Shown: piece by piece, positions 16,866 to 23,610 of the stretch
Layout: the number at the start of each line of letters is the position of its first letter
How positions within the stretch are numbered: the stretch's first letter is position 1
NCBI GenBank assembly: GCA_019746105.1
Contig: JAIESK010000078.1
Coordinates: forward strand, 1-56,289
Source: Alphaproteobacteria bacterium
GTDB lineage: Bacteria; Pseudomonadota; Alphaproteobacteria; UBA9655
Direction of reading: 5' to 3'
Length of the DNA stretch: 56,289 nt
Position numbers and translations under genes: made by a program
Notes under the pieces: model-generated
The model's database searches: none
What the model was told of the DNA's origin: nothing
Seen by the model: only the letters and a program-made list of their open reading frames with translations

Positions 16866-17411
16866 ATGATTCAATTATTTAAAGATAAACTGCCACCTTA
16901 TGTTGTTATTAATGATCCTTCGTCTCTGAACAAGGAGGTCTTGCGCACCCCCACACCGCCAATTAGTTTTCCTCTTGATGAGGAAAACAGAGAAATCATT
17001 CGCCAACTAGAAAAAAAATTTGATGGAGAAGAAAATTGTGGGGGACTGGCTGCTCCTCAAATTGGCTATAGCAAGCGGATTATTATTTTAGCGGCCGATG
17101 ATGAGGAGCTGAAGAAGTATCGAGATGATTTTACTGACATGCTCCCTAAATCTATTTGGATTAATCCATCCTTTAAGCCCGTTTCAAAGAAAAAGACCAC
17201 CGATTGGGAAGCTTGCTTTTCAGTGGATGGTCTTGCAGGAGAGGTGCCTCGTTTTACGGAAATCACTTATGAAGCTTGGACCCCTGAGGGAGAAAAGGTG
17301 ACCGGAAGGGCCAAAGGCTTTCTTGCACGCCTGATTCAACATGAAATTGATCACCTCAATGGCGTGCTGTTTATCGATCATGTGCCAGAGGATGAGTTGG
17401 TTTCACGTTGA
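16866..17411 (+). CDS. def: Peptide deformylase-like protein
   Basis: Removes the N-formyl group from new proteins, if active. The 181-aa start at 16866 is preferred because GAGGAG lies 8 bases upstream; an upstream ATG at 16809 lacks one. Motif 1 is GGLAAPQ (59-65), motif 2 EACFS with metal ligand C117, and motif 3 QHEIDHLNG with H159, E160 and H163. All three metal ligands and the catalytic Glu are kept. Motif 1 and motif 2 deviate from the canonical GxGLAAxQ and EGCLS, so it may be a second, variant deformylase. The last 70 bases occur again, diverged, at 18571-18645. Confidence 0.85.
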   Translation: MIQLFKDKLPPYVVINDPSSLNKEVLRTPTPPISFPLDEENREIIRQLEKKFDGEENCGGLAAPQIGYSKRIIILAADDEELKKYRDDFTDMLPKSIWINPSFKPVSKKKTTDWEACFSVDGLAGEVPRFTEITYEAWTPEGEKVTGRAKGFLARLIQHEIDHLNGVLFIDHVPEDELVSR

Positions 17412-17468
17412 GTAGAAGGACTTTGTGATTTTCTCATCTTAGTTTCTCCACATTAACGTGTTTCTTTA

Positions 17469-17496
17469 TTGACAAATTTTTCAAAAACTGTATATT
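17469..17496 (+). promoter_or_regulatory. Sigma70-type promoter of the 327-aa secreted protein gene
   Basis: -35 TTGACA (17469-17474), 16-base spacer, -10 TATATT (17491-17496), about 90 bases before the chosen ATG at 17589. Confidence 0.6.
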
Positions 17497-17588
17497 TCAT
17501 TTTAATTTCAAATAAAAAAATAAAAATTTATTATATGTATTTAAGTGCAGGATTTCCTCTGTTTAAAAAATATAAAATAGGAAATAAA

Positions 17589-21430: not shown

Positions 21431-21566
21431 ACCTATCAAAAAAGCTTAATTTCTTAAAAAAGTGAGCTTATATTAAATGTAGCCTGGTAGGCAAATTATC
21501 AAATGTCCTCTAGAGTAATGAATACTGCCTCTGAGAGGCACAAGTTCTTTCGCAAAAGAGTAACGG

Positions 21567-22601
21567 TTAAAATCTTTCTATTTCAAACTTTTGTTCTTTT
21601 AAAAGTTCTAGGATGCCAAAGGGTCCGTATAAATGAAAGCTACCCACCATAATGGTAAATGATTTATCTGAATATTGTGTAAGATACTTTATAATTCTAG
21701 GTGCCCAAAGTTCATTTCTGTTTTTTCCATATCGAATGTATTCGGGAGAACCCTCCTCTGCAAGCTTCGTTACTTTTTCTTCAGATCTGCCGTTTACATA
21801 GTTTGAAATTGAAGGCACAGCTAATAATTCTTTTCGTGTAGGTGCTTTATTTGCTTGTACTTTTTTTGCTATATGAATTAAATCTACTAAACTTTTCTCG
21901 CCTATTAAAGTGAATGTAAAAGGAGAAAGATCATATCCAACGCTTAACTGTTCCCGTTCTTTCTGAGTTTCTAAACCTAGGACGGGTTTATTGGATCTCA
22001 TGTAATATGCGTCTAACTGGGAATCCATTCCAGTTCTTTCACTAAGTTTCTTAAAAGTTTCTTGGAGTACTAAATTCAGTAGGCGGGGGTGAATCTTTGA
22101 GAGCCCATAAATCTTTAAAGGCGATTGAGAGACAAGTTCATGCAAATATTGCTTAGTTGCAATATCTAAATTGTCAGTCCAATCTTGCTCTGTATCGAGC
22201 ATTTTAAAATAAGAATCTTTACTTAAAAAACCTTCATTTTCTAAAGACATATTGTCATATTGCTTAAAAAGTCTAGAACTAATAATATTAAAAGTTGTCG
22301 ATATATCCCAGCTCCGTTCATTATTCGTTAGTTCAGTTATAAAAACGTCCATTTGTTTTGCTGCTTTAGAAAGACTTGGGCCAAGAAAAGTTAGGGGAGT
22401 TCTATGATTACTCCCTATGAGTAGGATTTTTTGGTCTGGGTTTTTAGGATTTGTTAGATAATAAGCATTCTTCCTAGATACAGGCTGGCGAATGCTTCCT
22501 CCTTCTGTCTCTTCTTCTTTTAAAACTCTCTCTTCTGCAAAAGCAGTAAATGGAAATAATAAAGAGACAACAAAACCCGTAAGCAATAATTTCTTCTTCA
22601 T
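21567..22601 (-). CDS. Secreted TraB/GumN-family protein
   Basis: 344-aa protein with a signal peptide (MKKKLLLTGF...FTAFA). It carries the TraB/PrgY/GumN signatures: an N-terminal LIGSNHRTP, a central GMDSQLDAYY...KPVLGLET, RNELWAPRI, and the C-terminal VGSFHLYGPFGILELLKEQ. Members of this superfamily include peptide-pheromone shutdown factors and metal-dependent Tiki-type proteases; the conserved GxxH and GxFHL histidines are present. The target is unknown. It lies directly downstream of ftsY, between it and the displaced ftsY tail. Confidence 0.85.
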   Translation of the reverse strand: MKKKLLLTGFVVSLLFPFTAFAEERVLKEEETEGGSIRQPVSRKNAYYLTNPKNPDQKILLIGSNHRTPLTFLGPSLSKAAKQMDVFITELTNNERSWDISTTFNIISSRLFKQYDNMSLENEGFLSKDSYFKMLDTEQDWTDNLDIATKQYLHELVSQSPLKIYGLSKIHPRLLNLVLQETFKKLSERTGMDSQLDAYYMRSNKPVLGLETQKEREQLSVGYDLSPFTFTLIGEKSLVDLIHIAKKVQANKAPTRKELLAVPSISNYVNGRSEEKVTKLAEEGSPEYIRYGKNRNELWAPRIIKYLTQYSDKSFTIMVGSFHLYGPFGILELLKEQKFEIERF

Positions 22602-22683
22602 AACAGAACCAATAAAATATTATATACAATATTATAATAACTTATAAAATTTAATTTTTAATTAATAATGCTTTCAAGTAGGC

Positions 22684-23610
22684 TTACGACAAACGGTCTT
22701 TAGCACCCAGTAAATTCACTGCAAAATCTTTGGCGGAAAAGCTGTGGAGATCATCAATGTGCTCTCCCACGCCCACGGCATGAATGGGGAGGGCGAATTG
22801 TTTGCTAATGGCAACAAGAACACCTCCCTTTGCTGTTCCATCCAGCTTTGTCACAATGAGTCCTGAAACATCCACGACTTCTCGGAAGACCTGAACTTGA
22901 TTCAAAGCATTTTGTCCCGTAGTGGCATCTAAAACCAAAAGGGTGGCATGGGGGGCTGAGGGATCAACCTTTTGGATGACCCGCCTGATTTTCTTAAGCT
23001 CTTCCATCAATTCCGTTTTATTTTGGAGGCGCCCTGCCGTATCAATGATCACGACATCATCATGGCGGGCTTTGGCTTTCTCAAGGGAATCATACACAAG
23101 GCCGGCGGCATCCTTTGAAGGCGCTTTTTCCAGGGGAACATCCGCGCGCTGAGCCCAAACTTCAAGCTGTTCAATGGCTGCAGCGCGGAAAGTATCTCCC
23201 GCCACAAGAGAAAGTTGATAGCCTTGGCCTTTCCATTGTTTGGCCAATTTGCCGATAGTAGTGGTTTTACCCGAGCCATTGACTCCGAGAACCAACACAA
23301 TAAAGGGTTTTGAGCCCCCCTCAGGTACCAAAGGAATGGCATGGGGAGCAAGAATAGCTTCAATATCTTCAGCAAAGCTTGTCTTCACCTCTTCAATCGA
23401 AATGTCCTGATTATACTTTTTTTTGCTTAGTTTCTTGATAAGTTCTTGAGCGGATTCCACGCCCAAGTCACTTGTGATCAAAAGATCTTCAAGTTCCTCC
23501 AGCGTTTCTGTGTCCAGTTTTTTGTGGGTAACAAGGGTTGTGATCCCCTCTGAAAGGCGAGTTGATGATTTTTTGAGACCGTCTTTAAGGCGAGAGAACC
23601 AATTGCTCAT
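22684..23610 (-). CDS. ftsY: Signal recognition particle receptor FtsY
   Basis: GTPase receptor that docks ribosome-SRP complexes at the membrane for co-translational insertion. The 308-aa protein lacks the long acidic A domain of E. coli and starts with the amphipathic NWFSRLKDGL helix of the NG form. GTPase motifs are GVNGSGKTTTIGKLA (109-123), DTFRAAA, IDTAGRLQN and TKLDGTAKGG. Its ATG overlaps the mtaB stop codon by 4 bases, so the genes are co-translated. A second copy of its 3' end lies at 21328-21430. Confidence 0.96.
   Translation of the reverse strand: MSNWFSRLKDGLKKSSTRLSEGITTLVTHKKLDTETLEELEDLLITSDLGVESAQELIKKLSKKKYNQDISIEEVKTSFAEDIEAILAPHAIPLVPEGGSKPFIVLVLGVNGSGKTTTIGKLAKQWKGQGYQLSLVAGDTFRAAAIEQLEVWAQRADVPLEKAPSKDAAGLVYDSLEKAKARHDDVVIIDTAGRLQNKTELMEELKKIRRVIQKVDPSAPHATLLVLDATTGQNALNQVQVFREVVDVSGLIVTKLDGTAKGGVLVAISKQFALPIHAVGVGEHIDDLHSFSAKDFAVNLLGAKDRLS

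Follow-up and report, generated by a model that had tools for sequence, protein, structure and literature searches.

A block of accessory genes between def and ftsY that probably grew outward from both of its flanking core genes

How did second copies of the 3′ ends of two core genes come to lie inside the very block of accessory genes that those core genes enclose? The question is raised by a 56,289-nucleotide (nt) contig of an alphaproteobacterial genome (JAIESK010000078.1, positions 1 to 56,289; assembly GCA_019746105.1), the whole of which we call the window. In it, def, encoding peptide deformylase (16866 to 17411, plus strand; Pfam Pep_deformylase, 2.8e-40), and ftsY (22684 to 23610, minus strand; Pfam SRP54, 4e-72) flank, in convergent orientation, a block of five open reading frames (ORFs). 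An earlier note, made from the letters alone, had read the order as def, a first cargo gene (cargo A), an old def tail, three further genes, an old ftsY tail, a second cargo gene (cargo B) and ftsY, and our analysis matched that description. We compared the locus of the window's own genome (G000) with those of 14 relatives in the genus. Our answer is that the def-ftsY gap is a hotspot that has grown serially outward from both flanking genes via homology-facilitated illegitimate recombination, a reading to which we give roughly three chances in four.

Both second ends are present, and they are 82.5% (def) and 90.3% (ftsY) identical to the live ends. A repeat search paired 17354 to 17414 with 18584 to 18644 at def (61 nt, 85%) and 21328 to 21430 with 22684 to 22786 at ftsY (103 nt, 90%), while blastn among four hotspots paired 17337 to 17414 with 18565 to 18644 at def. 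Because the E values were 2.7e-35 for ftsY and 2.7e-16 for def, similarity by chance, which the earlier note had named as an outcome that would undo its reading, is excluded. The note had placed the old def end at 18571 to 18645; an end does lie there, but the relic is longer, running from about 18488 to 18645 on the plus strand. The stretch 18488 to 18520 also matches live def at 17225 to 17260 with a local score of 29, which was reached in none of 2,000 shuffles of the stretch upstream of 18565 and with a P value of 0.001 when the stretch up to 18583 was used. This outer signal was weaker against the relatives' def genes (G003, P value = 0.04 in both tests; G006, P value = 0.0075 in one test). 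The relic carries several deletions and a 2-nt insertion, and its inner half aligns loosely.

Cargo A (330 amino acids [aa]; 17580 to 18572, plus strand) directly adjoins intact def. Its stop codon (18570 to 18572) lies inside the def relic, and about 27 of its last codons are read out of the relic; therefore, the joint probably cut cargo A short. On the far side of the relic comes sec1 (166 aa; 18744 to 19244, plus strand), and this pair is what gives the locus a direction. In G006, live def runs straight into a gene 90% identical to sec1, and the window's def relic together with sec1 (18565 to 19309) is 90.8% identical to live def plus sec1 of G006 over 746 positions, which marks the relic as the former def end, still in its former surroundings. 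A live junction in a relative thus equals the window's relic junction, as the process proposed in the earlier note predicts. On this comparison, the live def end and cargo A are younger than the def relic and sec1.

On the other side, cargo B (TraB/PrgY/GumN family, 344 aa; 21567 to 22601, minus strand; Pfam, 2.8e-16) directly adjoins intact ftsY, and the displaced ftsY end lies further in (21328 to 21430, minus strand; 90.3% over 103 nt). Beyond it stands a 422-aa ORF (20051 to 21319, plus strand), the older cargo on this side, which has a 76% match in G007 at a different locus and more distant ones in G008 and G009, and whose protein had no match in Pfam, NCBIfam or PDB. The 3′ ends of both live genes are taken to be the newcomers', that is, to come with the donor DNA, and the tails inside the block to be those that the resident genes had before.

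The relatives supply the order of arrival. The G003 locus is an empty site, the stop codons of def and ftsY being 81 bp apart, an arrangement that the earlier note had expected among relatives. The spacer of this empty site survives in the window at 19854 to 19918 (79% identity, E = 3e-8; score of 62, with 500 shuffles giving 38 or less), at mid-block, between sec2 (a paralogue of sec1; 19355 to 19831, plus strand) and the 422-aa gene and also between the two relics, which supports growth from the middle outward. G003 could instead have lost a block, and the mid-block position of the remnant holds either way. With the old def and ftsY ends displaced inward and the empty-site remnant between them, the oldest material, as these alignments date it, is in mid-block and the youngest is at the edges, and the growth from both sides that had been proposed is supported. 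Elsewhere in the genus, the order in G010 is def-sec2-toxin-toxin-ftsY, with no relic seen; in G001, def and ftsY converge 1.3 kb apart; and in G002, G004, G005, G007, G008 and G009, they are on separate contigs. Here, "toxin" is a working label, supported by no family match, for ORFs of 470 to 530 aa with variable fronts and a conserved C-terminal part.

The same layout recurs in G006, where the order is def-sec1-toxin 1-toxin 2-ftsY relic (210 bp)-3′ part of a sec2 gene-toxin 3-ftsY. The relic is joined inside the sec2 gene, and the uncut order sec2-toxin-toxin-ftsY is seen in G010. This locus is also where an in situ origin has to be weighed. In that alternative, unequal exchange between sister chromosomes at a microhomology makes a tandem duplication, the inner copy decays, the cargo diverges or is lost, and the live gene recombines with relatives. 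Such a history would fit the fact that the relic lies between paralogous toxins, and that relic and live tail in G006 are 96% identical over the last 100 nt, mutually nearest, with a downstream flank common to both. Set against it, toxin 2, the one beside the relic, shares 76.8% identity with the G010 toxin beside live ftsY and 63% with toxin 3, and the sec2 fragment has no full sec2 counterpart ahead of toxin 1 or toxin 2.

A second hotspot gave a parallel picture. A stretch of G006 that was chosen because it held a related toxin (contig C70, 7561 to 12287; L152) reads toxA-EamA relic-toxB-live EamA, where EamA is a transporter gene (Pfam, 7.7e-15) and the two toxin ORFs are paralogous (555 and 578 aa), so the relic here also lies between paralogues. 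It consists of 67 nt of the gene end plus a 37-nt piece from further in. G000 has a simple form of this locus, a single toxin beside EamA (contig C79; L154), and G003 has other cargo (L153). The gene beside the relic, toxA, is 77% identical to the single toxin of G000 and 62% identical to toxB; it is, by this comparison, the orthologue of the G000 toxin. The bases behind the toxA stop align without gaps to the G000 junction (48/60) and with gaps to the live junction of G006 itself (45/58). The outer 67 nt of the relic are 83.6% identical to the tail of its own live gene, 82.1% to that of G003 and 80.6% to that of G000, and the inner 37 nt are 91.7%, 81.1% and 82.9% identical, respectively; taken as sequences, the relic's own letters do not decide between the origins. 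Its inner piece being nearest to its own live gene, and the 91% identity of the stretches before toxA and toxB, would suit duplication in place. Weighing the toxins and junctions together, tandem duplication in place is disfavored for both G006 relics.

For the window itself, simple tandem duplication does not explain the layout because cargo A and cargo B are each present only once, whereas a tandem unit would need a second copy unless that copy was lost, and in situ duplication was rejected there for this reason. Cargo A was found in 1 of 39 genomes, its own, as a single copy, with no relative in the 38 others or in phages or plasmids. Cargo B was found in 3 of the 39: once in its own genome and as two weak TraB-family matches elsewhere (30% and 25%), with none in phages or IMG/VR. 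In addition, the window's def relic sits in the setting of the live gene of G006. None of the 15 genomes of the genus has a second full-length ftsY match on its ftsY contig, and none of the 11 searched with def (G000 to G010, with G011 to G014 set aside) has a second def there, so that the full tandem copies decaying in place that the earlier note had named as the contrary outcome were not seen. We therefore regard in situ duplication as an unlikely account of these loci as a group.

The nature of the differences between tails bears on both duplication and a further alternative, in which foreign cargo is inserted with a long target duplication, so that the gene end is copied by the insertion and nothing comes from a donor's gene. 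The final layout would look alike, with long direct repeats flanking the insert. This alternative predicts repeats that are identical at birth and an inner copy that decays at all codon positions, whereas the window's ftsY tails differ as alleles do. Over 93 nt they show 8 differences, with 6 synonymous and 2 nonsynonymous codons and with 1, 1 and 6 differences at the first, second and third codon positions, a pattern resembling that of three pairs of species over the same length (1,1,6; 0,1,7; 0,1,5). Furthermore, 5 of the 8 differences fall at the 13 sites that vary among the other species (P value = 0.001); control species pairs gave P values of 0.0002 to 0.013 in this test. Between the relic and live ftsY of G006, 4 of 4 differences over 93 nt and 9 of 16 over 207 nt fall at such variable sites. 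Compared at 31 variable sites, the G006 relic matches G003 in 21 cases, its own live gene and the window in 19 each and G010 in 10; four private changes and a deletion of 4 nt also occur in it. For def, the differences over the last 48 nt fall at codon positions 2,0,5 and 5 of 7 are at variable sites (P value = 0.017); over the last 63 nt, the pattern is 3,3,7, with 5 synonymous and 4 nonsynonymous codons, and 5 of 13 are at variable sites (P value = 0.19). The earlier claim that both relics keep the encoded peptide with mostly synonymous differences thus stood for the ftsY relic (93 nt) and for the last 48 nt of def but not for the last 63 nt. The allele test is weaker than its P values suggest because selection on a live gene likewise leaves changes at third positions. 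Differences that track variation among species nonetheless speak against tandem duplication as well, and two stretches beside relics, namely the start of the piece next to the ftsY relic of the window and, in G006, the sec2 fragment, come from related hotspots, not from unrelated cargo. Insertion with target duplication accordingly strikes us as rather improbable, the partial decay of the def relic notwithstanding.

Three joints could be read from both sides: those at ftsY in the window, at ftsY in G006 and at EamA in G006. The window's def joint was unreadable, cargo A having no known relative. At the window's ftsY joint (21424 to 21460), the incoming piece begins with sequence similar to the flank that follows sec1 in G006 (92% over 37 nt, E = 1.2e-8), and the core gene and that flank share CATGAATG (8 nt), of which seven are kept at the joint. 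The ftsY joint of G006 has TTGAT (5 nt), common to the ftsY of other species and to sec2, and the EamA joint has CATAA (5 nt). In a simulation of random joins between ftsY and cargo, which covered the ftsY joins only, an overlap of 5 nt was reached with a probability of about 0.006 and one of 7 nt with a probability of about 0.0006. These overlaps bear on whether the layout is an assembly artefact, in which contigs of different strains were joined at a common gene end. The three nearest relatives (ftsY 94 to 97% identical) are alphaproteobacterial metagenome-assembled genomes and G000 is a draft of 117 contigs, circumstances in which such joins might arise. Assembly word lengths usually far exceed 5 to 8 nt, however, and the readable joints share only that much; the layout also recurs in a separate assembly and at other genes, and contamination of G000 is given as 0.37%. 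An artefact is thus very improbable.

Least probable of all are site-specific islands, in which a recombinase inserts elements that rebuild the gene 3′ end at which they land, as islands at tRNA genes or gene 3′ ends do on insertion: we rejected them since the ftsY joints lie at differing places, 103 nt (window) and 210 nt (G006) from the stop, with no common core and therefore no fixed site used, since no tRNA gene is near the block (the window has two, the nearest at 39679), and since no recombinase family was found among the five cargo proteins, to which the search was confined. Within that same scope, the earlier claim that the block grows without integrase or transposase was supported.

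Serial growth by homology-facilitated illegitimate recombination could proceed as follows. DNA from a relative, in which a piece of hotspot is still attached to the donor copy of the flanking gene, would enter the cell. On one side, homologous recombination in or beyond the flanking gene would give the live gene the donor's 3′ end; on the other, a short run of bases in common would join the incoming DNA to the resident gene within its 3′ portion. A working gene would then have the new cargo as its neighbor, and the old 3′ end would be left as a stub further in. After repeated rounds, the youngest cargo would adjoin the core genes and the oldest would lie in mid-block. We infer homology on one side and microhomology on the other from the tails and joints, and the DNA would have entered in linear form, perhaps by natural transformation. 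ComEC was found in 17 of the 17 genomes searched (genus, 11/11), DprA in 15 of 17 (genus, 10/11) and Ku in 2 of 17 (genus, 0/11). Judged by gene content, this set is compatible with uptake of linear DNA and makes Ku-dependent joining less likely, demonstrating neither; ComEC and DprA are also present in most control genomes, whether transformable or not. That incoming cargo with a variant tail replaces the gene end and pushes the old end inward, as had been proposed, is supported by the empty site of G003, the def-sec1 junction of G006 and the recurrence at ftsY and EamA in G006.

Several observations weigh against this account. The relic and live ftsY tails of G006 are nearest to each other over the last 100 nt and have their downstream flank in common, and the EamA relic is about equally near to three tails in its outer part and nearest to its own live gene in its inner part. 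In the window, the live and relic tails alone share two states absent from the other species compared; therefore, if the account holds, the donor was probably a near relative. None of the genomes compared is the donor, and 100-nt windows compared with three relatives revealed no tract boundary in live def or ftsY. On the ftsY side of the window, the former junction was seen in no relative because the 422-aa gene occurs in relatives only at another locus. The def relic is partly decayed. The registers of the joints were picked from alignment ends, which biases them toward overlap. Finally, the excess of displaced tails in the genus, reported below, is small and not significant.

The earlier note knew of no named system with this layout. 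That stands for the housekeeping anchors and the two-sided growth, which are new, and does not stand for the mechanism, which has already been proposed for toxin loci. In the passages that bear on this question, Kirchberger et al. 2017 (PMC5361080) describe serial displacement of effector modules at type VI secretion system (T6SS) loci of Vibrio cholerae and propose homology-facilitated illegitimate recombination. The likeness lies in an anchor of homology on one side, an illegitimate joint on the other, an old effector 3′ end shifted back and the use of allele relationships against duplication. In the V. cholerae loci the secretion or effector gene itself is the anchor and growth is from one side; def and ftsY, by contrast, are housekeeping genes with no relation to the cargo, and the block grows on both sides. 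Similarly, the text on Acinetobacter contact-dependent inhibition (CDI) loci in PMC6336857 reports displaced cdiA ends and orphan modules, with a mechanism proposed likewise. The stepwise remodeling and the 3′ remnants in order of arrival are alike, whereas a CDI toxin gene swaps its own tip and here the core gene stays functional, with only its end exchanged. Measured against serial displacement, the old 3′ ends are indeed shifted in order of arrival, and the anchors, def and ftsY, are not toxin or secretion genes.

Oliveira et al. 2017 (PMC5635113), in the part concerned with hotspots, find about half of known hotspots without evidence of mobile elements and argue for change by recombination in flanking genes. 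The present locus resembles these in having an accessory block between core genes, no recognizable mobile element and flanking homology. In the model put forward for those hotspots, double homologous recombination swaps the content and leaves no stub, whereas here content is added and the old end remains: two relics in the window and one at ftsY of G006 are leftovers of a flanking gene that such exchange would not produce. Homology-facilitated illegitimate recombination in transformable bacteria, as discussed in sections of PMC2884548, likewise has one homologous side and another joined at little or no homology; it is known from experiments with selected markers, whereas our reading is of loci as they occur in nature. 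Long target duplication on insertion (Nobusato et al. 2000, as summarized in PMC4978471), suggested for restriction-modification genes, also leaves host sequence as a long direct repeat on either side of the insert, but here the tails differ like alleles and the incoming piece has related-hotspot parts. The present case joins the displacement known from toxin loci with housekeeping anchors and two-sided growth. Titles and the openings of abstracts yielded no earlier report of displaced core-gene ends in a literature search outside which most subscription journals lay.

We then looked at how general displaced tails are in 60 stretches not picked for content (928,742 bases and 720 ORFs from G000, G006 and G010), with 58 stretches of other bacteria (881 ORFs) as a control. 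Copies inside another ORF, which are likely paralogues, were omitted, and the EamA case, from a stretch picked for its toxin, was not counted. Free downstream tail copies in the same direction were found for 3 of the 720 ORFs (a traD gene, an unnamed ORF and a toxin gene) versus 1 of the 881 controls. For free upstream tail copies the counts were 3/720 versus 1/881, and for free upstream head copies 2/720 (one tandem array) versus 0/881. That displaced tails are commoner in the genus is suggestive only.

Several individual loci also stood out. In G006, the traD 3′ end (contig C61, L196; 1635 to 1777 and 5898 to 6335) is repeated 4.1 kb downstream at 98.6% over 143 nt, with a 1,207-aa ORF between; this is the layout of the window on what seems to be a conjugative element. 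In the same genome, the 3′ end of the unnamed ORF (contig C65, L197; 6466 to 6870 and 7059 to 7114) is copied 188 nt downstream over 56 nt at 94.6%, beside lon. The toxin gene, of the DUF637 type, lies in G010 (contig C45, L212; 1732 to 6476) with three displaced tails (3991 to 4130, 4905 to 5164 and 6335 to 6476); the array of small related ORFs between the tails resembles the orphan-tip arrays of polymorphic toxins. In G000 (contig C101, L166; 11485 to 12177 and 14486 to 14577), a phosphotransferase-family (APH) gene has a copy of its 3′ end (92 nt, 91%) upstream of itself, a position that does not suit an outward-growth layout. Between a toxin-like ORF and ftsY in G010 (L031; 11505 to 11610) there is an inverted-repeat block, which we take to resemble repetitive extragenic palindromic (REP)-type elements.

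As for the remaining features of the block, sec1 and sec2 are 70% identical (18659 to 19198 versus 19313 to 19818), a relative of sec2 stands behind def in G010 (71%), and the start of sec1 is signal-peptide-like as judged by eye. The one match in PADLOC was a weak one for sec1 (E = 0.006), and the cargo proteins had no match in NCBIfam. The G+C content in 1-kb windows is about 0.33 to 0.39 in the block, 0.43 to 0.48 on the ftsY side and 0.35 to 0.46 on the def side. Promoter-like sites were at chance level; terminator-like sites numbered 8 versus 3.4 expected and were not used in the argument.

More tentatively, and at somewhat less than even odds in our view, the 3′ ends of core genes could serve as unmarked docking sites, with hotspots growing in one set direction, outward from the middle, and stubs recording the order of arrival. 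On that reading, cargo attached to a relative's copy of a gene would be added harmlessly, since the gene would always be completed by the donor's end, and this may be a general route by which hotspots without mobile elements gain genes and do not only swap them. Displaced ends of housekeeping genes are a physical trace of single events that gives their direction, order and joint position and that any set of genomes can be screened for. If such ends are common, the growth of hotspots could be ordered and counted, and gene-end fragments overlooked by annotation would be explained.

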